DNA of 64,000 bases, from contig NZ_LT629763.1 in the NCBI RefSeq assembly GCF_900105255.1, positions 558,001-622,000 on the forward strand, in the 5' to 3' direction. Made by a program: the position numbers and the translations under genes. Below the pieces are notes generated by a model. That model searched no databases. It was not told the origin of the DNA and saw only the letters and a program-made list of their open reading frames with translations. Every line of letters starts with the position of its first letter. The first letter of the stretch is position 1. Origin of the DNA: Halopseudomonas sabulinigri. Lineage in GTDB: Bacteria > Pseudomonadota > Gammaproteobacteria > Pseudomonadales > Pseudomonadaceae. Below, in pieces: positions 16,200-38,800 of the stretch.

Positions 16200-16401
16200 G
16201 CAGGGCGAAATCGCAGCGCAACAGGGCATATGTGTCACTTTGCCAGTAGCTGGTTGTTATTGCTTCGTGCAATCGTTAATGTTGTGCGCGCTTGCCTTGG
16301 CAAGGCTGAAAACGAAATAGGCGGTGCGCGTGTGAGCACACCGCCAAGCGGCAGATAGAATAGAAACTACAATAATAAGAAGTTATCCAGGGTAGCCCGT
16401 G

Positions 16402-17406
16402 ATGTCAGGTGTGTGGGGAAGGCTGAAGAGCGATTTTCAGCTATCTATAGTGACACTGGTGGGAATCTGCTCCGTGTTCGGCGTTACGCCCTACGCGGTG
16501 TACCGTTTACACCAAGGTAACTGGATCGTCGGCTTCACCGACACCTTTCTGGTGCTGGGTACCTCCTTCGCGGTTTTCTACGCCTGGCGCACCGGCAACA
16601 CCGTCAGGCCCGGGCAGTTTCTCGCAATCATCTACTCACTGGGTGGCTTTCTGGTCACCATCAAACTGGGCATCAATGGCCTGTTCTGGCTTTATTGTCT
16701 GGTTTTATTCAACTTCTTTGTTGTACCTCCGCTGCAGAGCCTGATCGCCACGGTGACAACGCTGGTGGCTGTGTGTGTCTACGGCTGGATGCGACCGCAG
16801 GACATATTCGAAAGTCACTACCAGATGATGTCCTTTGTAGTCACTTACCTGTTGGCCAGCCTGTTTGCCTTTGTGTTCGCTTACCGGGCGCGCGTGCAGC
16901 GAGTTCAGTTAGCGTTACTGGCAACACTGGACCCGCTTACGGGTATCGGCAATCGGCGGACTATGGACGAGGAACTGGATATCGCCATTGCCGACAGTCA
17001 GCGCTACGGCATGAGCTTTGGATTACTGGTACTGGATCTCGACCACTTCAAGTCAGTTAACGACCGTTACGGGCACAGCGTCGGGGACCAGGTGTTGGTT
17101 GATTTTGTGCGGGTGATCAGGAGCGCATCCCGCGCCTCGGATCGGGTCTTTCGTCTGGGCGGGGAAGAGTTCGTGCTATTGGTGCCCAAGGTGGACAAGG
17201 CCGGCTTGGCCGGTGCCGCCCAGCATGTTCAGCGCAGCGTGGCGAACCAACTACGCTCACCGGGTGGGCCGGTGACGGTCTCGATAGGTGGTTGCGTACT
17301 GGCCGACCACGAAAACCGGGACGATTGGCTGAGAGACGCGGATATATGTCTTTACCAGGCCAAGGATGCAGGCCGTAACTGCACCGTGATCAAGGGACTG
17401 GCCTAG
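16402..17406 (+). CDS. Membrane-anchored diguanylate cyclase
   Basis: 334-residue protein with five to six hydrophobic helices in residues 15-162 followed by a GGDEF domain. The catalytic motif GGEEF is at 253-257, so the enzyme can be expected to make cyclic di-GMP from GTP. An inhibitory I-site (R244-A-S-D247) lies exactly five residues before it, so feedback inhibition by product is likely. The membrane part has no motif I recognise and would be the sensor. ATG 16402 is chosen over the GTG immediately before it. Single gene, with a free 200-base spacer upstream. Confidence 0.9.
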   Translation: MSGVWGRLKSDFQLSIVTLVGICSVFGVTPYAVYRLHQGNWIVGFTDTFLVLGTSFAVFYAWRTGNTVRPGQFLAIIYSLGGFLVTIKLGINGLFWLYCLVLFNFFVVPPLQSLIATVTTLVAVCVYGWMRPQDIFESHYQMMSFVVTYLLASLFAFVFAYRARVQRVQLALLATLDPLTGIGNRRTMDEELDIAIADSQRYGMSFGLLVLDLDHFKSVNDRYGHSVGDQVLVDFVRVIRSASRASDRVFRLGGEEFVLLVPKVDKAGLAGAAQHVQRSVANQLRSPGGPVTVSIGGCVLADHENRDDWLRDADICLYQAKDAGRNCTVIKGLA

Positions 17407-18541: not shown

Positions 18542-20515
18542 TTAGCTGCCGATCACGCCGCCGTCTTCACGGGTAATCAATACGGTTGTTGAACGGGGGC
18601 GACTGCGGCCATCACTGGCGGGATAACTGATGCCGGGGTGCTGCACATTGATCCACATGGCGGTTTCATCCGGCGACCAGGTAATGCCGGTAATTTCGGC
18701 GCCCCAGGGCCCGACAAGAAAGCGCCGCACCTCGCGGGTCAGTGGGTCGGCACAGAGCATCTGATTGGAGCCGATTGTGCTCATGTAGGGCGCCGTTTCG
18801 TCGGCGTCGGTGAGTATCCACAGGCGTCCTGCGCTGTCAAAGGCCATGCCGTCTGGCGAAGAGAACAGGTCTCCGCTGATGTTGCCCACCCGGTTGGTGG
18901 GAATACTTTGCTCGGCATTCTGCCGTTCACCGGCTATGACAAAGATATCCCACTCAAACTCCTCGGCGGTCGGGTTCGCGCCTGCTTCTCGCCAACGCAG
19001 GATCTGCCCGTGCACGTTCTCTGCTCGCGGGTTCGCGGCGTCGGTCGGCTGTACTCTGCCACGGTCGGTGTTGTTGGTCAGCGAGACATAGGCTTCGCGG
19101 GTCTGCGGATGCACCGCGACCCATTCCGGGCGGTCCATTGGCGTCGCGCCTGCGGCGTCGGCGGCGCCGCGTGAGTTGAGCAATACCGCTTGCTGATCAG
19201 CAAATCCGTCTTGTGTGGTCAGCCCCGGCTCACCAAAGCGCAGTGGCAGCCAACGGCCGCTGCCATCAGCGTTGAATTGAGCGGCGTAAAGCGTACCACT
19301 GTCCAGCACGCTGGCGTTGTGTTCAGGTTCATCCGGGCGATAAGCCCCGGCGGGTACAAACTTGTACACGTATTCACCGCGAGCATCATCGCCAGAGTAA
19401 AACGCCATCCGACCATCGTCGCCCAGCGAACACACGGCGCATTCACGGCCCAGACGCCCCATTGCCGTTCGCTTGGTGGGCGTACTGCCCGGCGCAAAGG
19501 GATCCAGCTCAACCACCCAGCCAAACCGATTGGGCTCGTTCACATGCCCCAGATGAGGCTGATCGGCTTGCGGCGTCGCATTGAAGCGTGGCTCTGCAGA
19601 CTCCCAGGCGTAGTAGCGACTGCTGCCACCCAGTCCGATGCCGTAACGTTGGTGCTCTGGCCGCCGGGCGTAGTCCTGCTCGTCCCGGTTCACAAAATAG
19701 TTGTGGAAGTTCTCTTCGCAGGCCAGGTAGGTGCCCCAGGGCGTGACACCCATCGAGCAATTATTGAGGGTGCCAAGAATCTCGTCGCCGTCGGGGTTGC
19801 TGGCGGTCTTCATGCGCGGGTCACCGGCCAGCGGCCCGCTGATGCGAAAGGGAGTGAAGCCCGTGACGCGGCGATTGAAGGGTGATTTTGCTACGCGTTG
19901 CCATTGGCCGTCAGGGTCCTTGGCAATTTCGATCACACTCAGGCCGTGCGCCGCCAACTCCTTGTGTACCTGTTCGGCAGGGCGCGTGCGGGTGCCGTTC
20001 GGGCCATCAACGAAGGTCATTCCGCCGGTGTGCAGGGTCGGGTTTACATATTCGTGGTTGATTACCAACAGGCCGTGCCGGTTGGGGTTCTCGGCAAAGG
20101 GGAAAAAGTGCATGCCGTCGTGATTGTCGCCGGCTTGCAGCAATTGGTCTTGCCAGCTGTTGCTGGCGTCATCGCGCCAGGCGGGGGCCTCCGGCATGAC
20201 CGCGTCGCCCCAGCTGAAAAACGGCTGAGCTCGGTAGCCCGGCGGCACCCTCACTGAATCGAAAGAAGATGAGGAAATTATTTCAACTGATTGAAAATTA
20301 AGAAGTGTGCTCTTTCTATTAGTGGCTGAGACGGCTTTCGCTAGCGGGCTGAGCAGCGCTGGAAAAAGGCCACACAGGGCTAACGCTGCGCCGCCCTTGA
20401 GCAGGCTTCTTCTACTTTGGCTGATGACCTGATCAAGGCTCGGTTGCTGACTTGGGTTGATAATCCGATCATCCAGCGACTCTAGCGCGTGATGAAACTG
20501 CTGATCCTGCTTCAT
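18542..20515 (-). CDS. phoX: Tat-exported PhoX-family phosphatase
   Basis: 657-residue alkaline phosphatase of the PhoX/DUF839 family, a Ca/Fe metalloenzyme with a beta-propeller that removes phosphate from many monoesters in the periplasm. A twin-arginine signal is seen (SRRSLLK, Arg35-Arg36, then a hydrophobic stretch to about residue 60). Family segments include NHEYVNPTLH, GTLNNCSMGVTPWGTYLACEEN and FSSPDGMAFDSAGRLWI. The start MKQDQQFHHALESLDD overlaps the tonB stop by four bases (ATGA), so it is the last gene of the phytase operon. Upstream in-frame codons belong to tonB. Not PhoA or PhoD by sequence. Confidence 0.92.
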   Translation of the reverse strand: MKQDQQFHHALESLDDRIINPSQQPSLDQVISQSRRSLLKGGAALALCGLFPALLSPLAKAVSATNRKSTLLNFQSVEIISSSSFDSVRVPPGYRAQPFFSWGDAVMPEAPAWRDDASNSWQDQLLQAGDNHDGMHFFPFAENPNRHGLLVINHEYVNPTLHTGGMTFVDGPNGTRTRPAEQVHKELAAHGLSVIEIAKDPDGQWQRVAKSPFNRRVTGFTPFRISGPLAGDPRMKTASNPDGDEILGTLNNCSMGVTPWGTYLACEENFHNYFVNRDEQDYARRPEHQRYGIGLGGSSRYYAWESAEPRFNATPQADQPHLGHVNEPNRFGWVVELDPFAPGSTPTKRTAMGRLGRECAVCSLGDDGRMAFYSGDDARGEYVYKFVPAGAYRPDEPEHNASVLDSGTLYAAQFNADGSGRWLPLRFGEPGLTTQDGFADQQAVLLNSRGAADAAGATPMDRPEWVAVHPQTREAYVSLTNNTDRGRVQPTDAANPRAENVHGQILRWREAGANPTAEEFEWDIFVIAGERQNAEQSIPTNRVGNISGDLFSSPDGMAFDSAGRLWILTDADETAPYMSTIGSNQMLCADPLTREVRRFLVGPWGAEITGITWSPDETAMWINVQHPGISYPASDGRSRPRSTTVLITREDGGVIGS

Positions 20516-21369
20516 GGTCGACTCACTGTTTCCAGGCGATAACGGAAGGTATTGCGGACGCCGGGGACGGCGACTGGCTGTCCGTTGATCATCCGGGGTT
20601 GATAGACAAAATCCTTGGCTGCGGCCAAGGAGGGGCGCACGAAGATCTGTTCTTCGCAGGCACCGGGCACGATTTGCGGGTCGCTTACCCGGCCATCGGG
20701 CAACACCGTGTACTCGACCGTGCAATCTCCCTCCAGACGCCGGCTGAGCGCGCGTCTCGGGTAATCCGGTGCGGCCTTGGTGAGCGGTGTGTAACTACTC
20801 ACATCCGCCGCTTTGGCGGCCGCCGCCGCGGCGCGCTGCCGGGCTGCTTCGCGCTCGGCGGCTTGTTGCCGCGCCTGGGCTAGCGCCTCGGCCGCCTGGT
20901 GAGCCTGGGCTGCCGCCTCTTGCTGCTGCGCCAGCTCGCGTTGCCGCTGCTGCTCGGCCTGCTTGCGCGCGATGGCCGTAGCGTCAGGCGGCGTGGCGAC
21001 CGACGTTTGCTGGCTGGGCGTTTTCGCCGGTGGTGCTGCGACGGGAGCCGTTACTGGCGGTGTCACGGGTTCAGATTCGGCTACAGGCTCCGGCACCGCG
21101 GCAGGCACAGCCTTGGGTTCCGGCTCAGGGCGCTCAGGCATCGGCGGTTGCGCGGCGGATGACGGCATGACCACCAGCTGCGTCTTGATGCTCCGGGCCG
21201 CCTCGGGCGGTGGCGGCGGTTGCGGCTGCCAGCCGAGGTAGATCAGTCCCGCGGCACTGGCGTGCAAGGTCAACGTGGCGATCAGCGGCAAGCACCAGAC
21301 ACGGGGACTGGATGACACCGCTCGCTCAGCCGTCAGCAGCGGGGCGTTCAGGGTGTTATCGGGCAACAT
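20512..21369 (-). CDS. tonB: Energy transducer TonB with TolA-like middle
   Basis: 285 residues. One membrane helix (about 25-47) contains His36, in the place of the TonB His20. A proline-rich stretch (50-120) is followed by a Gln/Ala/Arg/Glu-rich probable coiled coil (131-188) resembling TolA domain II. The C-terminus (199-280) is a TonB domain: APDYPRRALSRRLEGDCTVEY with DFVYQPRMINGQPVAVPGV. Cys216 and Cys238 could form a periplasmic disulfide. Nine bases separate it from exbD. It transmits energy from ExbBD to outer-membrane receptors, most likely the one in this operon. Confidence 0.9.
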   Translation of the reverse strand: MLPDNTLNAPLLTAERAVSSSPRVWCLPLIATLTLHASAAGLIYLGWQPQPPPPPEAARSIKTQLVVMPSSAAQPPMPERPEPEPKAVPAAVPEPVAESEPVTPPVTAPVAAPPAKTPSQQTSVATPPDATAIARKQAEQQRQRELAQQQEAAAQAHQAAEALAQARQQAAEREAARQRAAAAAAKAADVSSYTPLTKAAPDYPRRALSRRLEGDCTVEYTVLPDGRVSDPQIVPGACEEQIFVRPSLAAAKDFVYQPRMINGQPVAVPGVRNTFRYRLETVSRP

Positions 21370-21378
21370 GGCGTTCTC

Positions 21379-21816
21379 TCATGGTGCTTCAGTGATCAGG
21401 CCGAGACTGGTGACGCCAGCCTGTTGCAGTGCGGCCATGCCGGTGACCACCCGGCCATAGTCGACGCCGGCGTCGGCGCGAATCATCACCTGCGTATCGG
21501 GCTTGCGCTGCAGGAGCTCGCCAAGCGCTGTAGTCAGGCCTTCCGGTGCATTGGCGCTGTACTGGTAGCGTTCGGTTTGTACGCTGTCACCCTGGTTCCA
21601 GTGGTAGCGACCAGCGTTGTCGATAGACAGCGTCACTATCGAGGGCGCCTCGCCAGGTAGCGCCTCGCTGGCCACCTTGGGCAGCTCGATCTGCACGCCC
21701 TGCGTCAGCATGGGCGCGGTGACCATGAAAATAACCAGCAGCACCAGCATCACGTCGATGTAAGGCACCACGTTCATTTCGGCCTTGGGTTTACGTTTCA
21801 GGCGGGCAGGGCGCAT
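21379..21816 (-). CDS. exbD: ExbD/TolR-family motor subunit
   Basis: 145 residues with one N-terminal membrane helix, VVPYIDVMLVLLVIFMVTAP, in which Asp21 corresponds to the proton-path aspartate of ExbD (Asp25) and TolR (Asp23). The segment MLTQGVQIELPKVASEAL is closer to TolR than to E. coli ExbD. The periplasmic part reads as a normal family domain. Start and the exbB stop share ATGA. Its neighbour TonB, rather than TolA plus Pal, argues for an ExbD role; a TolR origin is likely. Confidence 0.88.
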   Translation of the reverse strand: MRPARLKRKPKAEMNVVPYIDVMLVLLVIFMVTAPMLTQGVQIELPKVASEALPGEAPSIVTLSIDNAGRYHWNQGDSVQTERYQYSANAPEGLTTALGELLQRKPDTQVMIRADAGVDYGRVVTGMAALQQAGVTSLGLITEAP

Positions 21817-22505
21817 CAGGCTGCCACCTGCGCCCGGTTGTGCACGCGGCGATGCAGAATCGCGCTGAACTCTTCGGCAAAGTTGTAGTACTGGCCCAGC
21901 AGACTCTCGCTCCGCGTGCTGAAGCGGTTATAGGCCACCACGGCGGGAATCGCGGCGAACAAACCGATGGCCGTGGCGATCAGGGCCTCGGCAATGCCCG
22001 GTGCCACTGTGGCCAGCGTGGCCTGCTGCACCTGCGACAGGCCGATGAAGGAATTCATGATGCCCCAGACGGTGCCAAACAGACCGACATAGGGACTGAC
22101 CGAACCAACGGTCGCGAGGAACGGCAGGTGCTGCTCCAGCCGTTCTTCCTCACGGGCGATGGCCACGCGCATGGCGCGCTGCACGCCCTGCATGACCGCG
22201 TCGGGGTCGCCCTGGTTGTGACGATTCAGTTGGGCAAACTCGCCATAGCCTGCGCGGAATATCTGTTCAACGCCGGCACGGTCCTGGCTGCTGCTGTACA
22301 ACTGGCTCAGCTCCAGACCAGACCAGAACTGATCTTCGAATGCCTTGAGGGCGCGCTTGGCCTGGTTGAACAGGTTGCTGCGCTGGGCAATCAAAAACCA
22401 GGTGGCCAGTGATGCCAGCAGCAGAATCAGCATGACGCCCTTTACCAGTACGCTGGCTTCGAGCACCAGTGACCAGATGGTGTGTGTTTGAGTGGTAGGT
22501 ACCAT
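21816..22505 (-). CDS. exbB: ExbB/TolQ-family motor subunit
   Basis: 229 residues with three membrane helices (about 10-40, 130-160, 170-195). [22 protein letters not shown] and [15 protein letters not shown] match the TolQ pattern more than ExbB. The conserved [13 protein letters not shown] and [19 protein letters not shown] helices line the proton path. GAGGAACCT precedes the ATG. With ExbD it forms the stator that powers TonB. Encoded between the phytase and exbD. Confidence 0.9.
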
Positions 22506-22518
22506 AGGTTCCTCGCTG

Positions 22519-22539
22519 GCGGGCCGTTAGCGGGCCCGC
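22519..22539 (-). promoter_or_regulatory. GC-rich hairpin between phytase and exbB
   Basis: Perfect seven-base stem GCGGGCC/GGCCCGC with a seven-base loop, placed 14 bases before exbB in the 82-base spacer. No T tract follows, so a partial attenuator or an RNA-stability element is more likely than a terminator. Confidence 0.35.
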
Positions 22540-22587
22540 TTGTGTATTGGATGACAAAAAGATGCAGGTTTGATGACGGCGGTGATA

Positions 22588-24549
22588 TCAGGGCAGCTTT
22601 AGCGCATCGGCGATCTGTTCCCAGGCCACCAACTTGAAGTTCTGCCTGCCCTGCGGCATGCGCTTGCGACCGTCCTGTACTACCAGCATGCCGCTGGCCC
22701 AGATCCCACCAAAATCAACCGAACTGACTTCCAGCCCATCGGTTTCGGAAACGCCGTCGATGCCGGCGGCGGTATTGATGCCAATCCGGAATGCGCCGCG
22801 CAGTTGGTAGGGCGGTTCGGCATCGAGCACCAGATAGCTGTCGTTGCCCTGGCTCGAAATCACCAGATATGGCTGCTCGGCCTGATACACCGCCAGACCC
22901 TCGACATCGGCGTGCAACGGGCCTTCGGCGCGGATAACTTCAACCAGCTCGCCGCTAGCGGCTGGATCGCTACTCAGCGCCCAGACGGCAACGCCTTCTT
23001 CACCAATAAACAGACGTTGGCGTGCGTCATCCGCTACGCAGCCTTCCGGCTGGGTTTGCGTGCTGAATTCGCGCACCAGGCTGCCCTTGACGCTGCCCTG
23101 ATCGTCTTCCAGGCGGTATTGCAGGAAGCGGCCGCTCTTGTCGTTGGCAATGGCGTAGATATCGCCGCGCGGGCCTTTCGCCATGCACAGGCCATAAATA
23201 TCGTCGAGGGGCAGGGCTATGCCTCCCAGGCCTGTCACTTCGCCGTTGACGGGGTCGATCGCGAACAGCTCCAGGCTGTTAGTGTCACGGTTGCTGGCAA
23301 CCGCGATATCCGCTGGTTTGCCGGCCAGGGTGAATCCACTGCGCACATCGACATTGTTGATGCGCCCGACCGGCAGGTATTGCAGCTGCTCACCCGTAAG
23401 GTCGTACACGCCCAGGCCGCCGCGTTTGTCGGTGCCGAGGATGCGTGACTGGCTGGCATCGACGGGGTTGACCCAGATCGCCGGGTCATCCGCTGCATCG
23501 CCGCCGTGCGGTACTGGTGTGGTCTGCGCCTGCGCGGGCACCTCCACCAGAGCCGCAGCTGTGGTGGGGCTGTCGCCGCCAGGCAGCTCGGCCATGCGCA
23601 ACGCTTGATCCGTGGCATCCGCTATCAGCAGCTCCAGTGCCGCGCCACTGCGGCTATACAGGCGCTCGGCGGCCTGTACAGCCGGTAAGGTCAGGGCGCT
23701 GTCGGCAGCCCAGCCATCGGCGAGTGCGCGGTAGCGATACAGCGCTGCGTTGCCATCGACCGCCAGTACCCCGTCGGTGCTCGCCGCCAGGCCTTGGGGG
23801 CTGTCCTGCAATTGGCCGTAAGGCGTGAGCAGATCGACCATCTCACGTTCGCCGTTGGTTTCAGGGTTGGCCGGGTAGGCCCAGATGCCAATGTCTTCTT
23901 CGCTGATGAACAGCGTCTGCAGCGCATCATTGACGGCGCAGTACTTGGCGCCCACCGGCAGATGGAGGTCTCGCATCAGCCTGGGTTCAGTCAGCTGTTG
24001 CTGCTGCTCCGCCAGTAGCCATTGCTGACCCAGGCCTTCTTCGCCAATCAGAAACAGGTACAGGTAGTCGTGTGGGTCGCGGTAGAAGCACAGGCTTTCA
24101 ATCGGGTAGTTGGCGGCTGGCAGCCAGCTCGGCTTGGTGAAAGCTCGCTGCGCGCTATTCCAGTTCAGCAGCAGGGTCTGGTCGCGTACCTCGTCCAACG
24201 TGGCGCTGAGTATGTTGTCACCCAGTGGCCGCGCATCCAGAGCGGAAAAGCGACCCTGGTAGGGCTGGCTGACCGCGTCGCCGGCAGCATTGAGCAGCCA
24301 AAGGCCGCTAGCTCCCACGGCGACCCGGTCGACCTTGGCGTTGTTGCCCTTGGGCAGCAGCGCCCAGCTATCAACAGGGCGGGGCGGCTGCTCGCTGGAC
24401 CAGATGGACAGCGAAAGATTGGTCGCGCTCGTTGCTTGAGCAGGAGCGGCCGCGCTGGATAATGGCTGCGCCGCGTCGTTATCGCCGCAGCCGCTCAAGG
24501 CTAAACAGGCCGGCAGCAGGGCGCCGGCGATCAAAAGTGTCAATCGCAT
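22588..24549 (-). CDS. Two-domain beta-propeller phytase lipoprotein
   Basis: 653 residues. A lipoprotein signal ends in LALSGC (Cys21 lipidated). Residues 345-650 form a full beta-propeller (3-)phytase domain with the family signature DDPAIWVNP (from 354), LGTDKRGGLGVYDL, NNVDVRSGF, GLCMAKGPRGDIYAIANDKSGRF, HADVEGLAVY and QGNDSY, whose acidic residues bind Ca. Residues 45-335 look like a diverged propeller with repeats such as YLYLFLIGEEGLGQQW and TLFISEEDIGIW, but without the DDPAIW motif; tandem phytases with an incomplete first domain are known. It would cleave phytate to lower inositol phosphates at the cell envelope. Confidence 0.92.
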   Translation of the reverse strand: MRLTLLIAGALLPACLALSGCGDNDAAQPLSSAAAPAQATSATNLSLSIWSSEQPPRPVDSWALLPKGNNAKVDRVAVGASGLWLLNAAGDAVSQPYQGRFSALDARPLGDNILSATLDEVRDQTLLLNWNSAQRAFTKPSWLPAANYPIESLCFYRDPHDYLYLFLIGEEGLGQQWLLAEQQQQLTEPRLMRDLHLPVGAKYCAVNDALQTLFISEEDIGIWAYPANPETNGEREMVDLLTPYGQLQDSPQGLAASTDGVLAVDGNAALYRYRALADGWAADSALTLPAVQAAERLYSRSGAALELLIADATDQALRMAELPGGDSPTTAAALVEVPAQAQTTPVPHGGDAADDPAIWVNPVDASQSRILGTDKRGGLGVYDLTGEQLQYLPVGRINNVDVRSGFTLAGKPADIAVASNRDTNSLELFAIDPVNGEVTGLGGIALPLDDIYGLCMAKGPRGDIYAIANDKSGRFLQYRLEDDQGSVKGSLVREFSTQTQPEGCVADDARQRLFIGEEGVAVWALSSDPAASGELVEVIRAEGPLHADVEGLAVYQAEQPYLVISSQGNDSYLVLDAEPPYQLRGAFRIGINTAAGIDGVSETDGLEVSSVDFGGIWASGMLVVQDGRKRMPQGRQNFKLVAWEQIADALKLP

Positions 24550-24600
24550 TCAGGTTCTCGCATCAAATCGGTAAGCCGGGCGCGGTGGCGCCCGCAGGAT

Positions 24601-27111
24601 TCAAAAGTGGGTCAACGACAGGCCTACCTTGTAGGTCGGGCCGTACTCTTCGTACTGGGCGTTGTAATCACGTTCGCCGGTGTAGACGTAGTAGCTCTCG
24701 TCGGTAATGTTTTGCGCCTCGGCAAACAGTTGCAGATGCTCGGTGAGGTTGTAATGCGCGCTCAGGTCGATAAACAGTTGATCGTCCACGCGATAGTCGT
24801 AGCGCTTGTCGAGCACATCGCCCACTTCGCTGAGATAGTCGGACTGATAGTTGGCCGCAATGCGCATGCCGAACCTGCTGTTTTCCCACCCCAGGGTCAG
24901 GTTACCGGTGGTGTCGGACTGACCGGGCAGGCTGATGCTGCGTTTGGCGCGCGTGCCGCTGTTGGTGTCGAACTGTTCGATATCGGCGTCGGATTTACTG
25001 AAGGTACCGTTGGCGCTCATCAGTAAGCCGTTCCAGGGCGACGGCAGCCAGCTGAACTGCTGCGAATACGCCAGTTCCAGGCCGTAGACACTGGCCTGGT
25101 CGCCGTTAACGTAGGTGTAGGCCTCATCGAACGCGGCGTATTCGGCGGTGCCCGCGAGATTGGCGTTGTAGACGAAGTTTTCGATGTCTTTGTAGAACAC
25201 AAAGGCAGACACCGCTCCAGCCTTGCCCATGTAATGCTCTATACCGATATCAAGGTTGCTCGACTCCAGCGCCTTGAGTTGCGGATTACCGAACTCGGCT
25301 TCGTCACCGTCAATAACAAACCCCGGAAACAGTTGGCCAAAGGTCGGCCGCACCACGGTATTGGTCCAGGCGGCGCGCATTTGGCTGTTGCTGCCGAGCT
25401 GATAGATGGCGTGCAGGCCTGGCAACCAGTGGTGGTAGTCGTTGCGTTCGTCAACGGCTTCAAAAGCACCTTCATTCAGGCCGGTGCCCTTGGCTTTCAG
25501 GCGCGTGCCCTCGTAACGCAGGCCAGCAATGATGCGCAGGTCGTCGATATCGACGGTGTTCATCATGTAGGCAGCGTTGATGTTCTCCTGGATCTCGAAG
25601 TCATTGATCCGCGATTGCTCGTCATCATAGAAGTCAGCGGCGTCCAGCCCGGCCATCAGGCGCTCCAAAGCGCTGGCGGAGATCTGCGGGCCGAGACTAC
25701 CGTTGCCGTTAATAAAGTTGGCCATGTTCAGCTGGGCATCGGTGAAGCCATAGCTATCCAGGTCTTCATAGGCCCAGACTTCAAGGTCGTTATCCTTGGT
25801 GCGCGTGCTGAATTTGGTGCCGAATTTGATCTGGGACGGTAGCCCCTGCCAGAAGTAGTCTCGGGCCAAGTCAACGCGGATATTCTGTTCGGTATCGGTG
25901 GTGAGCTGTTTCTCGCGTTCGATTTCATCCAGGGTAAAGTTGCTCGCCTGGTAAAAAGCATCGTTGATTTGGAGGTTGGGCTCCTTGCTGCTGTCGTACC
26001 CGGCGTCGATGAAATCATCGTTACCCGCAAAGCTGGCGCCGGGGATGTGCAGCGGGCTGTCTTCGCTGGCTTCGCTATAGCCATATTGACTGCTGAGGGT
26101 CCAGTCACCCAGGCGTCGCTCGCCGCCCAGAACCAGGCTTTTGACTTCCTGGGTTTCCGAGCGATCCTTGATTTCGCGGGTACCTTCAGCATCGCCGCGC
26201 TCGCCGGGCAATTGCGCGTCGGCAAACTCGATCACGTTGGCCTGCCGCGTTTCGCTGTCCTGGTAGCGGCTGTAGAGGGTGCGCAGATACAGCTCGGTGT
26301 CGTCATCGGGGCGGTAATCGAAGTTCAGACCGGCGCCGGTGCGCTCACGCTCAATGTCGTAGCGCCGCTCTTCCAGCTCCTCCAGCCGGGCACCTGCGGC
26401 ATCGTCAAAGTCCCAGGCGCCACCCGTTTCGACGTTGTCTGAACCAAAGCTGCGGTTCTCCCAGCTGAGGGCGGCGGCTACGGCGAAATTGTCGACCCCT
26501 TGGCCCAGGCTGAAACGATTGCTGAGCGCGCCAGAGACCTTGGGGCTGGTATCACCGGTGTTGTCGTCATAACTGGCTTCGCTGGTCACGCTGTAAAAGG
26601 CCGCCGGGTGGTCGAAGCCCGATAGGCTTTCTACCTCGACGGTGCCGCCCAGGGAGTTGGCATCCATATCGGGAGTGAGCGTCTTGACCACGGATAGTGA
26701 CTGGATCAGCTCGCTGGGCAATACATCCATGGCCACCGCGCGGCGGTCATCCTCCGGCGCGGGTACCAGGGTACCGTTGATGGTAACCGAGTTGAGGTCG
26801 GCGCCCAGGCCGCGCACCCGTACAAACCGGCCTTCACCCTGATCGCGCTCTACCGAGACCCCAGGCACGCGCTGCAGCGCTTCAGCGGCGTTGTCGTCAG
26901 GTAACTGCCCAATGGCATCCGCGTGCACCACGCTCTCTACACTGTCGGACAGACGCTGCTCTTCCAGCGCTTGCTGCATCTGCGCCGCCTGGCCAATGAC
27001 GTTGACCACTTCGGGTTGCGATTGTGCTGCGGCGTAACTGGCGCCGGCAATCGACAGTGCCAATGCACTGCAACGAAAACCGGCACGAAACAAGGAATGG
27101 GTGACTGACAT
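24601..27111 (-). CDS. TonB-dependent receptor (TonB-Xanth-Caul type)
   Basis: 836-residue outer-membrane receptor. Signal peptide to about residue 30 (SIAGASYAAAQ). A TonB-box-like PEVVNVIG follows, then a plug domain with LSDSVESVVHADAIGQLPDD, NAAEALQRVPGVSVERDQGE and VTINGT, the pattern of the TonB-Xanth-Caul receptor subfamily, which often takes up organic substrates rather than siderophores. The beta-barrel runs to the final aromatic Phe. First gene of the operon with phytase, exbB, exbD, tonB and phoX; inositol phosphates or their metal complexes are the inferred ligand. Confidence 0.93.
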   Translation of the reverse strand: MSVTHSLFRAGFRCSALALSIAGASYAAAQSQPEVVNVIGQAAQMQQALEEQRLSDSVESVVHADAIGQLPDDNAAEALQRVPGVSVERDQGEGRFVRVRGLGADLNSVTINGTLVPAPEDDRRAVAMDVLPSELIQSLSVVKTLTPDMDANSLGGTVEVESLSGFDHPAAFYSVTSEASYDDNTGDTSPKVSGALSNRFSLGQGVDNFAVAAALSWENRSFGSDNVETGGAWDFDDAAGARLEELEERRYDIERERTGAGLNFDYRPDDDTELYLRTLYSRYQDSETRQANVIEFADAQLPGERGDAEGTREIKDRSETQEVKSLVLGGERRLGDWTLSSQYGYSEASEDSPLHIPGASFAGNDDFIDAGYDSSKEPNLQINDAFYQASNFTLDEIEREKQLTTDTEQNIRVDLARDYFWQGLPSQIKFGTKFSTRTKDNDLEVWAYEDLDSYGFTDAQLNMANFINGNGSLGPQISASALERLMAGLDAADFYDDEQSRINDFEIQENINAAYMMNTVDIDDLRIIAGLRYEGTRLKAKGTGLNEGAFEAVDERNDYHHWLPGLHAIYQLGSNSQMRAAWTNTVVRPTFGQLFPGFVIDGDEAEFGNPQLKALESSNLDIGIEHYMGKAGAVSAFVFYKDIENFVYNANLAGTAEYAAFDEAYTYVNGDQASVYGLELAYSQQFSWLPSPWNGLLMSANGTFSKSDADIEQFDTNSGTRAKRSISLPGQSDTTGNLTLGWENSRFGMRIAANYQSDYLSEVGDVLDKRYDYRVDDQLFIDLSAHYNLTEHLQLFAEAQNITDESYYVYTGERDYNAQYEEYGPTYKVGLSLTHF

Positions 27112-27443
27112 CTACAAAGTCCTCTGTTGGCGAGTGGGCATCTACCCTGATCTGGGGAGGACCTTAGGCTGGCTTTGTGTCTGTTCTGTGACATCCATCC
27201 GCTGCAGCCGCAAGGATCGCGGTTTTTACGTGAACATCAGCGCAGGTTGAGCTATTAACACCCCCATTCGCGCTGCTTGGCTGGCTTGAAACGCCGTGTT
27301 TATGGCCCGTTACCAATTCTGGACGAGCAATATCCAGCCGTCGCCGCATTCAGGCTGAGCTGAAATGACCCCCGGCGCTGAAACCTCGCTGTCATGTTCT
27401 TCTGCTGAGCTTGCCTGCAGTTACCCCAAGGAACGCTGGCCCT
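27112..27443. other. Divergent spacer between receptor operon and GGDEF gene
   Basis: About 330 bases without a gene that I can support. Apart from the candidate Pho box, I see no Fur-type 19-base palindrome and no strong sigma-70 hexamer pair. Short open frames here lack ribosome sites and family resemblance. Confidence 0.5.
27177..27194 (-). promoter_or_regulatory. Candidate Pho box before the receptor operon
   Basis: Read on the minus strand, ATGTCACAGAACAGACAC matches the Pho-box consensus (two CTGTCA-type repeats 11 bases apart) at 13 of 18 positions by my count. The first repeat is good and the second is degraded. Ten bases further a weak -10 (TAAGGT) appears, the usual Pho-promoter spacing, about 50 bases before the start codon. 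Control by PhoB would make sense for phytase and PhoX. Confidence 0.35.
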
Positions 27444-28367
27444 ATGTCGACCATGTTTGCGCTTCACCGATTCAAACTGCTGGCGCTGTTGCTGCTGGCC
27501 AATGGCGGTGCGCTGCTCTACCTGAGCCTCGGCGACCTAAAGCCAATGGCGATCTGGTCCTGGACCGATATTGCCGGGGAGGGCGGATCGGCCTTGCTGG
27601 TGCTGGTGTGGGCAGGCTTGTTACTCAAGGGGAGGCCGGCAGGGCGCGTTACCAATCTGCTGTTTTTTGGCCTGGCCTGCTTGTTCTTTTCGCTGTGGAT
27701 GGACAGTCTGGACGAGTTCATCGCCTTGCCCGAAAGCCTGACCCTGGATCACTGGCTGGAGTCGGCGCCGATGCCGCTGGGCTTTGCATTGCTCACGCTG
27801 GGGATCTACCACTGGCATTGTGAACAACTGGCGATCAGCGCGCAGATGATCAACCGCGAACGCCATTTCCGAGAACATCGGCTGTTCGATAAGGTGACTC
27901 CGCTCGGCGATGCCGGGTATTTCCGCCGGCAATTGCAGCAGGCGCTACCGGCTGCGCAGGCCAACAGTGAGCCGCTGTCGCTGGTCATGCTGGATATCGA
28001 CGATTTCAGTGCAATCAATCGCTCCTATGGCCACCGTGAGGGGGACCGTGTACTGCAGTTGGTCGCGCAACAGATACTGCTCAACCTGCGCAGCCACGAT
28101 CTGTTATGCCGTCTGGCCGGGGACAGGTTTATTGTATTGCTGCCGGCTACACTGGAAGCGCAAGCGCTGACCCTGGCGCAGGAGCTGCAGCAGTCGATTG
28201 CGCATCTGGCGTTGAAAAGCGCGGGGCAGGGCGAACGATTGCAGCTGCGGGCGACCACGGTCGCGCTGATGGCGCGGCAGGAAGAGGCCGACGCCTTGCT
28301 CAAGCGCTTGAACATTGTCATGGCGCGGGCCAAACAGGCGCCTCAGTTGCGGCAAGCGCAGGTATGA
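27444..28367 (+). CDS. Membrane GGDEF-domain protein with degenerate active site
   Basis: 307 residues. Hydrophobic helices at about 11-30, 49-62, 71-86 and 110-122 precede a GGDEF domain (about 145-305). The motif that should read GG(D/E)EF is AGDRF (225-229), with the catalytic glutamate replaced by Arg228, so cyclase activity is unlikely. The substrate-side motif LDIDDFSAINRSYGHREGDRVL is preserved, so it may still bind nucleotide or act as a signalling partner. AAGGA lies 11 bases before ATG 27444. The stop overlaps the start of the AraC gene (ATGA). Confidence 0.85.
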   Translation: MSTMFALHRFKLLALLLLANGGALLYLSLGDLKPMAIWSWTDIAGEGGSALLVLVWAGLLLKGRPAGRVTNLLFFGLACLFFSLWMDSLDEFIALPESLTLDHWLESAPMPLGFALLTLGIYHWHCEQLAISAQMINRERHFREHRLFDKVTPLGDAGYFRRQLQQALPAAQANSEPLSLVMLDIDDFSAINRSYGHREGDRVLQLVAQQILLNLRSHDLLCRLAGDRFIVLLPATLEAQALTLAQELQQSIAHLALKSAGQGERLQLRATTVALMARQEEADALLKRLNIVMARAKQAPQLRQAQV

Positions 28368-29395
28368 GCACGGCTGTCTGGCTGGACAGCGAAGCGCGCT
28401 TCATTGCCGCGCGCGGGCAGCCGGCCTGTCTGATCGATCTGGCGCTGTCGCGTGGCATCGACAGCCACCGCTTGCTCAAGGGCACCGGGCTATTCTACGA
28501 GGATCTCCTGGAGCATGACCCGCTGATCACTGCGCGTCAGTTTCACCGCCTGATCGACAACGCCCGGCAACTACTGGCGGCGGATGACAGCGCTTTTCTG
28601 TTCGGTCAGCAATTGCTCCCCGGACACTATGGCGCGACCAGCAACCTGTTGTTGCAGGCCGATACAGTGCTGCAAGCGCTGCAACAGCTGCAGCGCTTCA
28701 AGGCGCTGTTGAGCCCGCTGTGCGCGCCGGTGATAAGGATCGACGAACAATCGTTGTATCTGTATTGGCTGGACAGTTTTGATAGCGGCAAGAACCGGCA
28801 GTTTATGGTGGACGCCAGCATGACTGCTGTGACGGCGCTGTGCCGCCAGGTCTGCGGCCACGCGTTGCCCTGGCAATACCATCTGATGCAGGCCGAGCCG
28901 GTCTACGTAGAGCAGTATTGGGTGCATCTGGGCGAGCACCTGCACTTCAACAGCCCTACCAGCTTCATGCGCTTGCCGCGAGAGCATCTGATTACGCGCG
29001 CCGGTCAGGCTTCAGCTGTATTGGGGCGCATTGCCGAACAGCAAAGCCTGCAACAGCTAAGCGCGCTAACCGCGCCGCAGAGTTTGACCGACGGCCTGTT
29101 CGACTACTTGTGCGAGCACATTTCCGGGCTGGCCGGGTTGGAGCAGGTAGCGGCGGACTTTGCTATGAGCGCTGCGACCTTCAAGCGCAGGCTGCAACGG
29201 GAGGGGACGCACTTCCAGGCGCAGCTTGACCGGGCACGCACGCTTATAGCGACAGATCTGTATTTGCGACGGGGGTTCAGCAACGAGGCGGTGGCGAGCT
29301 ATTTACACTTCAATGATCGCACCAACTTCAGGCGCTTTCTCAAGCGCCTGACGGGCAGGTCACCCAATGATCTCAGACAATTTCTTGGCCACTGA
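28364..29395 (+). CDS. AraC-family transcription regulator
   Basis: 343 residues. The N-terminal part (about 20-200) resembles the arabinose-binding-like domain of large AraC regulators (ITARQFHRLIDNARQL, LPGHYGATSNLLLQADTVLQALQQLQRF). The C-terminal 90 residues are the double helix-turn-helix: LEQVAADFAMSAATFKRRLQ and NEAVASYLHFNDRTNFRRFL followed by KRLTGRSPNDLR. It overlaps the degenerate GGDEF gene by four bases, so the two are co-translated and probably act together. Targets are unknown; the phytase operon is the nearest divergent unit. Confidence 0.9.
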   Translation: MSTAVWLDSEARFIAARGQPACLIDLALSRGIDSHRLLKGTGLFYEDLLEHDPLITARQFHRLIDNARQLLAADDSAFLFGQQLLPGHYGATSNLLLQADTVLQALQQLQRFKALLSPLCAPVIRIDEQSLYLYWLDSFDSGKNRQFMVDASMTAVTALCRQVCGHALPWQYHLMQAEPVYVEQYWVHLGEHLHFNSPTSFMRLPREHLITRAGQASAVLGRIAEQQSLQQLSALTAPQSLTDGLFDYLCEHISGLAGLEQVAADFAMSAATFKRRLQREGTHFQAQLDRARTLIATDLYLRRGFSNEAVASYLHFNDRTNFRRFLKRLTGRSPNDLRQFLGH

Positions 29396-29423
29396 AGCTT
29401 TTAAAATCAAAGCCTTGCGGCGG

Positions 29424-30242
29424 TTACTTCAAGCGCCTTTCAATGCCCATTTGCATCAGGATCTTGGCAGAAATTTCTTCTACGGAGAAATGGGTGGAGT
29501 TGATATAGGGGATGTTTTCCTTGCGGAACAGGTTCTCGACCTCGCGCACTTCAAACTCGCACTGGGCAAAGCTGGAATAGCGACTATTGGGGCGGCGCTC
29601 GTTGCGAATGCCGGCCAACCGCTCCGCGTCGATGGTCAGGCCAAACAGTTTGGCCTTGTTCTGCTTGAGCGCCTTGGGCAGCTGCAGGCTTTCCATATCG
29701 TCTTCGGTCAGCGGGTAATTGGCCGCGCGAATACCATACTGCAGAGCCATATACAGGCAGCTGGGCGTCTTGCCGCAGCGCGATACGCCAACCAGAATGA
29801 TATCCGCCTGGGCATAGTGGTGGGTGCGGGCGCCGTCATCGTTGTCCATGGCGTAATGCACCGCATCAATACGGTCCTTGTAGTGGGTGTTGTGCTGGAT
29901 GGAATGGGTTTTGCCCACCGAGTACGAGGAGCCGTCACCCAGTTCCTGCTCCAGCGGCGCCAGAAAGGTCGAGAAGATATCAATCATATAGCCGCTGGAC
30001 TTGGCCAGTTCCTGGCGGATTTCATTGTTGACGACGGTATCAAAAATGATCGGCCGCGCCGCATCCTTCTCGGCAGCGGCATTGATTTGTTGTACCATGT
30101 CTCGCGCTTTTTCCACGGTATCGACGTAGGGTCGCAGCAGCTTGATAAACTGAATGTTTTCAAACTGTGCCAGCAGGCTCTGACCCAGAGTTTCGGCGGT
30201 GATGCCGGTGCCATCAGAAATGAAAAAAGCAGTGCGTTTCAT
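29424..30242 (-). CDS. ppsR: PEP synthase regulatory kinase/pyrophosphorylase
   Basis: 272-residue bifunctional regulator (DUF299/PSRP family) that inactivates PEP synthase by ADP-dependent phosphorylation of a threonine and restores it by Pi-dependent removal. The N-terminal [15 protein letters not shown] and the P-loop GVSRCGKTP (152-160) are diagnostic. It is transcribed divergently from ppsA, its substrate, across about 155 bases. Its 3' end converges with the AraC gene. Confidence 0.94.
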
Positions 30243-30399
30243 TCGCGAAGCCTTAAGATGTCGTATTCCATGGAGAGCGTGGTTGTGAGCTCAGGCCCGG
30301 CACACTCGTAAAAGACGGCATTGTGGCGCATTTGTTTCGGGCAAACCAGTCGTGCCCGTGCGGTCGCCGACTAATTCATTGATTGACGGAGAGATCACC

Positions 30400-38403: not shown

Positions 38404-38800
38404 GGTCCATCCTTCAAAGTTTGCGTTAGGTTCAGCACGATTTGTCGACCCATGCTCCGCTGGCCGTAAAACCGCTTAAGCAACGTTTGACTAGTAAAGG
38501 AGGAAACTGGAGAAATGCCAAGGAGGAGGGGTGACAAGCGCGACGAGCGGCTGAAATCCTGAGCATGGCGTTGCCGCCACGGCAGGGTCAGGCTGCTGAC
38601 CACTGATTGTCTACGTTAAATCGCTTCCCCGTCCCTCAGGACAACTTTCGTTCCAGTCGCCACCTCGTCAAACAGCTTTGTGAGCGGTAAAGACACGTGT
38701 CGGGCCGTTGGTTTTGGCGTCGACTCGGAGACCTTCTTGAGATCTCTGGCTAGCGGGAGCGTCGCAATGATGAGACTTCGGGTCTTATAAGTCAATCAAG
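38404..38800 (-). promoter_or_regulatory. Long untranslated leader of aceA
   Basis: About 400 bases without a gene. Short palindromes such as GACACGTGTC (38692-38701) and GAGATCTC occur, but I see no convincing RNA family. If transcription begins near 38777 the mRNA leader would be about 370 bases, unusual for a metabolic gene. Confidence 0.4.
38784..38789 (-). promoter_or_regulatory. Candidate -10 of the aceA promoter
   Basis: TATAAG on the minus strand, five of six matches. Its upstream region, where the -35 would lie, is covered by the palindrome at 38801-38826, so binding there would block RNA polymerase. Confidence 0.45.

Follow-up and report, generated by a model that had tools for sequence, protein, structure and literature searches.

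A divergent phytase and TonB receptor locus with a predicted TolQ-TolR-type motor in Halopseudomonas sabulinigri and related bacteria

Introduction

The closest described relatives of the system considered here are pairs formed by a phytase gene and the gene of a TonB-dependent receptor (TBDR). One such pair lies in the genome of Citromicrobium JL354 (PMC3400609), and both members of another, Fjoh_1367/1368 of Flavobacterium johnsoniae, are induced by phosphate depletion (PMC8115612); that phytases and TonB receptors are linked in marine bacteria is also stated in the initial annotation of the DNA studied here. The PhoB regulon of Caulobacter includes a phytase together with TonB receptors (PMC11208175). 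Throughout this work, papers given by PMC identifier are cited from passages of their text. Here we describe a locus of this kind found in 64,000 nucleotides of the gammaproteobacterium Halopseudomonas sabulinigri (assembly GCF_900105255.1, contig NZ_LT629763.1, positions 558,001 to 622,000, forward strand), a stretch that we call the window and that belongs to a genome of 4.03 Mb in a single contig. Its eight genes, arranged divergently, probably serve to obtain phosphorus by the capture of inositol phosphates, of which phytate is the likeliest, with a private TonB and a motor derived from a duplicated TolQR. The association of receptor and phytase is a known idea, and what appears new is a predicted private TonB motor of TolQR descent, together with a proposed switch formed by a pseudo-GGDEF protein and an AraC-family regulator. 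We found no description of a TolQR-TonB-phytase locus or of the pseudo-GGDEF/AraC pair in the open-access full texts searched; phytase, TolQ and TonB are named together in one open-access paper, a Methylobacterium genome report.

Results

The genes of the locus are predicted as follows (positions are those of the window).

24601..27111, minus strand: TBDR of the TonB-Xanth-Caul type, 836 amino acids (TIGR01782; barrel and plug Pfam matches)
22588..24549, minus strand: two-propeller beta-propeller phytase with a lipobox (LSGC), C-terminal domain of the catalytic type, N-terminal domain degenerate (PF02333)
21816..22505, minus strand: TolQ-type stator subunit, ExbB in the initial annotation (TIGR02796; PDB scores; tree)
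21379..21816, minus strand: TolR-type stator subunit, ExbD in the initial annotation (TIGR02801)
20512..21369, minus strand: force transducer of the TonB type, with a TonB_C domain and a spacer rich in Ala and Gln (PF03544)
18542..20515, minus strand: PhoX-type phosphatase with a twin-arginine signal (SRRSLLKG), 657 amino acids from ATG (PF05787; 3zwu)
27444..28367, plus strand: divergently transcribed, encoding a membrane protein whose GGDEF domain is degenerate (AGDRF; PF00990, 113.8 bits)
28364..29395, plus strand: AraC-family regulator, 343 amino acids, overlapping the pseudo-GGDEF gene by 4 bases, a conserved divergent neighbour (PF12625 and PF12833)

The six tandem minus-strand genes that had been annotated as a unit are all present, their gaps from receptor to PhoX (51, 82, -1, 9 and -4 bases) stay within the 82 bases given as the upper limit, and the family names of the receptor, phytase, TonB and PhoX were right. 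The unit as drawn had nevertheless overlooked the two divergent genes at 27444-29395. Instead of the "several ATGA overlaps" mentioned there are only two overlaps, one of a single base between the motor subunits and one ATGA between TonB and PhoX, and the end assigned to the locus, 27194, belongs to a short open reading frame (26937-27194) that begins there and differs in frame from the receptor, whose start is at 27111. As for PhoX, the ATG at 20515 is a likelier start than the TTG at 20725, upstream, of the listed reading frame.

We compared the locus over a family set of 248 genomes and a class-wide draw of 321 genomes. A total of 121 loci were collected, i.e., 40 from the family set, 80 named loci (the best 80 of at least 370 confirmed matches, which lean to close relatives) and that of the window. 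Six of these loci are repeats from the same genomes and 115 are distinct, so that counts over 121 loci or over 104 promoter regions include repeats and counts on distinct loci are drawn from the 115. Alignment A1 leaves out locus L072 (broken), and alignment A2 leaves out L033 (cut), L036 (split frame) and L072.

Phytase was detected in 112 of the 248 family genomes, which makes the locus common and not rare. With the receptor as query (E 1e-180) 111 genomes gave a match, all of them among the 112 with phytase; the sole phytase genome left (G234) has this gene near a contig start. The order phytase, TolQ-type subunit, TolR-type subunit and TonB, with the motor adjoining the phytase, was kept in all 40 family loci fetched (the phytase of L072 being broken), which is beyond chance and supports a conserved gene order. 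On the other side, 103 distinct loci reached far enough upstream of the phytase, and 102 of them carried the receptor, pseudo-GGDEF and AraC genes there. The downstream part varied more. Motor and PhoX were both present in 55 of the 111 distinct loci whose sequence extends more than 4.6 kb downstream, the motor only in 44, neither of them in nine, PhoX without motor in one and a partial motor in two. PhoX, present in 56 of these loci in total and missing from eight of the 40 fetched family loci, is optional and not a core member of the unit. Because of these contents we consider the regulator pair, the receptor and the phytase as the core of the locus, and the motor and PhoX as modules. The locus appears also in other gamma- and betaproteobacteria, in some of them without motor, and is sparse beyond close kin, phytase being found in eight of the 321 genomes of the class-wide draw (the window's own included).

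Some loci deserve separate mention. In L072 the receptor, phytase and PhoX genes are all broken, which is consistent with joint decay; there and in L200, both of the Stutzerimonas group, the receptor and PhoX (in L072 also the phytase) match in separate pieces, suggesting decay of the locus. Two records labelled Pantoea sp. Ap-967 and Brenneria sp. 4F2 (L163 and L178) carry a Pseudomonas-type locus. In the tree described below, the motor of L163 stands beside a Pseudomonas-family copy, which may reflect a wrong label on this record or a transfer of the locus.

The match to PF02333, the DDPAIW motif and the propeller fold identify the second gene as a predicted beta-propeller phytase. Its structure model is confident (mean predicted local distance difference test score, pLDDT, 89.2), and its C-domain is 39% identical to the Bacillus subtilis phytase 3amr, while the N-domain is homologous to the C-domain (98.3% probability) yet devoid of the DDPAIW and NNVDVR motifs. 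Dual-domain beta-propeller phytases, with a degenerate N-propeller and a C-propeller of catalytic type, are known. By crude regular expressions, NN.D.R was found in 98 of the 121 phytases, the lipobox in 77 of the 121 and the twin-arginine motif in 41 of 61 PhoX proteins, and we have left the misses uninterpreted because start sites are approximate and some genes are broken; the lipid anchor of the phytase may not be universal across the loci. PhoX, a predicted phosphatase, matches PF05787 over its full length and the solved PhoX 3zwu over most of it (E 1e-150), and a second PhoX is encoded elsewhere in the same genome. The receptor scored 600 bits with TIGR01782 (cut-off 310); its structure model is less confident (mean pLDDT 69), with the plug poorly modelled. 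The substrate of such a receptor is not readable from sequence, nor from this model, and PhoX enzymes are broad in specificity, so the locus might handle another phosphorylated substrate (lower inositol phosphates, phosphorylated lipids or sugars) with phytate as one of several. We regard this alternative as improbable, if worth keeping in mind, because the C-terminal phytase domain is well conserved, with the motif DDPA[ILV]W in 119 of the 121 loci.

The motor had been named ExbB-ExbD. Family scores, comparison with solved structures and phylogeny indicate instead that it is of the TolQ-TolR type. The first subunit passed the TIGR02796 tolQ model (288.4 bits, cut-off 221) and failed the exbB equivalog (169.8 bits, cut-off 206.2), and the second passed TIGR02801 tolR (139.7 bits, cut-off 127.3) and failed ExbD_1 (76.7 bits, cut-off 152.95). 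In a PDB search the TolQ-type subunit matched solved TolQ with up to 263 bits versus 131 for ExbB, and within its own genome it is about 69% identical to the housekeeping TolQ and about 38% to the ExbB. In a tree of 78 rows, built for the TolQ-type subunit and with 28 of 110 operon motors picked by hand for spread, the 28 operon copies formed one clade (99/95) beside 20 family TolQ (95/93), the rest being 29 other TolQ-type rows and a single, distant ExbB row on a long branch. The operon copies of Alcanivorax, Acinetobacter, Oxalobacteraceae, Salinicola and Methylophaga nest among those of the Pseudomonas family, some forks being weakly supported, and this nesting suggests lateral spread. The housekeeping tol genes are located elsewhere in the genome, and the tolQ-tolR-tolA-tolB-pal order of Tol-Pal is not found at the locus, where TonB and then PhoX follow tolR.

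The private TonB motor proposed initially thus stands as regards a TonB energiser of its own, and falls as regards the ExbBD identity of the stator. The transducer matches PF03544 (54.7 bits), is a TonB by NCBIfam as well and has a histidine inside its membrane segment. A transmembrane histidine has a role in TonB. This residue of TonB is named in PMC12204202. Against five relatives from its own genome, TolA included, the locus TonB gave one clear match only, to a TonB (35-36% over the C-domain); another own TonB (L246), compared in all frames, gave no match. We also considered a TolA-TonB chimera, given that the N-terminal profile matched TolA at 94.8%, but one exbB-linked TonB of the same genome matched better (97.0%), and two others gave 0.7% and 52.8%. 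The compared stretches are short and proline-rich, for which reason a TolA origin of the N-terminus is unsupported.

The same passages of PMC12204202 report that TolA and TonB are able to interact with a heterologous motor, and one could imagine that this motor is not private at all but a spare TolQR, or one serving all the TonB receptors of the cell, that lies here by chance of duplication. This seems quite unlikely to us in view of its distribution. At E 1e-50 the motor query gave two matches in exactly the 112 family genomes with phytase and no more than one in each of the remaining 136, i.e., a second TolQ in 112/112 versus 0/136, and in the 40 loci fetched this second TolQ adjoins the phytase and a TonB-type gene then follows. 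We read it as a dedicated motor, apparently a copied cell-division motor that now serves nutrient uptake.

The two divergent groups of genes share a promoter region, in which we predict the following sites.

27356..27370, minus strand: AraC-type site GGTCATTTCAGCTCA, exact
27248..27262, minus strand: second AraC-type site GGTGTTAATAGCTCA, 2 mismatches
27378..27395, plus strand: Pho-box-like site oriented toward the GGDEF-AraC genes, 11 of 14
27177..27194, minus strand: Pho-box-like site facing the receptor, weak (9 of 14), stronger in most relatives

Counting Pho boxes at 10 or more of 14 positions, 95 of the 104 promoter regions had one toward the receptor and 92 toward the regulator genes, compared with about 11 on each side in shuffled sequences and about 10 in random stretches of the same loci. 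Most of them lie at a similar distance from the gene starts (about 80-103 bases on the receptor side and 57-75 on the regulator side). The direct repeat GGTCA-N5-GCTCA, with one mismatch at most, was present in 99 of the 104 regions, twice in 73, against about 1-2 expected (about 2 in shuffled sequences), although this motif was found by eye in regions later counted and the count is therefore not independent. The picture was the same for the 99 distinct regions (Pho box in 91 on the receptor side and 88 on the regulator side; AraC-type repeat in 94, twice in 68) and, for Pho boxes, for 54 regions thinned for similarity (48 on each side). A search of the H. sabulinigri genome for other promoter targets of the AraC motif gave nine exact matches versus seven for the reversed control, and we claim no regulon. 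The regulator assigned to each site of the shared promoter is a prediction. Simple promoter and terminator scans gave no excess over shuffles. Fur boxes in the 104 regions were like those of shuffles, except for three regions at 14 of 19 positions (shuffles 1/520), and the best of the window reached 10 of 19. A role in metal acquisition, in which the receptor would import a phytate-complexed metal (e.g., iron-phytate) and the phytase would free it, is in line with the chelates that TonB-dependent receptors classically import and with the chelation of metals by phytate, but is very unlikely given this near absence of Fur-box enrichment next to strongly enriched Pho boxes and the presence of PhoX in half of the loci.

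The pseudo-GGDEF gene is adjacent and divergent in 112 of the 121 loci; eight of the nine misses are contigs cut short upstream, and only L053 truly lacks it. Over these 112 loci the signature reads AGDRF in 105 (window included), AGDKF in two and AGDCF, SGERF and AGDQF in one each, with two unread. The GG(D/E)EF signature of diguanylate cyclases does not occur in the PF00990 domain of the window; having AGDRF in its place, the protein is probably not a cyclase.

Around the locus, a separate GGDEF protein is encoded on the plus strand at 16399-17406, downstream of the PhoX end, and stays near the locus in several relatives. A reading frame of 314 amino acids (29367-30311) lies between the AraC gene and that of a phosphoenolpyruvate synthase; it has no Pfam or NCBIfam match, and relatives of it occur in some loci. 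Farther away, at 38545-38750 on the minus strand, there is an SrbA-type small RNA gene (Rfam RF02872, above the gathering score).

Discussion

The capture of inositol phosphates as a phosphorus source is the reading that we favour. What the sequence shows is a set of genes in a given order, their conservation and joint occurrence, and a motor of TolQ ancestry; from this context the receptor would be the importer of inositol phosphates. Under phosphate hunger PhoB, jointly with the AraC regulator, would switch on both operons, the membrane pseudo-GGDEF protein and some inducer assisting the latter. The outer-membrane receptor would take up the inositol phosphate, the phytase lipoprotein would remove phosphates from it before or after entry, and PhoX, where present, would finish the lower phosphomonoesters. 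Power for the receptor would come from the private TonB and its TolQ-TolR-type stator, the latter probably a duplicate of the Tol-Pal stator, so that transport could proceed independently of ExbBD-TonB.

Several observations weigh against this reading. Only the phytase points to the substrate. The motor subunits fall short of two narrower models for TolQ and TolR (NF008066, 293.5 of 403; NF008248, 88.4 of 162). Ten of the 111 distinct loci have no motor and two have a partial one, and there the receptor must be powered otherwise. The receptor-side Pho box of the window, at 9 of 14, is weak, and to this has to be added the dependence of the AraC-type count. Finally, an exoproteome study saw no sign that PhoBR controls the phytases of Pseudomonas (Lidbury 2016, PMC5082522). 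Phosphate control is, in sum, predicted from the Pho boxes of most relatives, with a published result that speaks against plain induction by low phosphate. The same study suggested phytate itself as the inducer of phytase; it also reports a distinctive PhoX made by strain DSM4166 under phosphate depletion, which could not be tied to the locus.

More tentatively, and with somewhat less than even confidence, we propose that a duplication of TolQR, close to the base of the Pseudomonas family, gave a stator that was coupled to TonB and not to TolA and became the private motor of an inositol phosphate importer, after which the cassette spread sideways to other gamma- and betaproteobacteria, the locus being gated by PhoB and, at the same time, by a new device of two proteins (pseudo-GGDEF and AraC). 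Such an AND gate would explain that the phytase stays hidden under phosphate depletion alone. The favoured reading itself is in line with a microarray of Pseudomonas syringae pv. phaseolicola exposed to bean leaf extract, in which PSPPH_2990 (phytase domain) was 3.2-fold and PSPPH_2994 (AraC family) 2.3-fold up (PMC2803797). The spacing of the tags leads us to infer that both belong to this locus; no other gene of it (receptor, motor) is mentioned in the passages cited.

Phytate is the phosphate store of plants and a large store of organic phosphorus in soils and waters. If the proposal is true, an outer-membrane route, an energy source and a switch for phytate uptake can be named in a common bacterial family, and each of the genes can be removed. 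It would further give an example from nature in which a cell-division motor was re-wired for the import of nutrients, which bears on the divergence of Tol and Ton.

Compared with the described systems, the locus shares with the pairs of Citromicrobium and F. johnsoniae a phytase gene adjoining that of a TonB receptor; in the passages cited, however, no private TolQR-TonB motor, pseudo-GGDEF protein or AraC regulator is mentioned for these pairs. The phosphate utilisation systems (PusCD) of Bacteroidetes likewise combine phosphatases and the outer-membrane transport of organic phosphorus in gene clusters (PMC8115612), but they use SusCD-type transporters with a SusD lipoprotein cap, whereas here the receptor is of the TIGR01782 family and Pfam gives nothing SusD-like among the eight genes. 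The phytase has the same domain plan as the dual-domain beta-propeller phytases and differs from them as a predicted lipoprotein in a receptor operon. With Tol-Pal (TolQRA) the locus has in common the TolQ and TolR stators by family score, and TolQ also by tree, but its stator is paired with TonB inside a phytase operon, and no tolA-tolB-pal follows. As in private TonB systems of the HasB type, a single TonB appears to serve one substrate locus. PMC12204202 names HasB. The locus differs from systems of that type in that its stator would also be private, and of TolQR descent.

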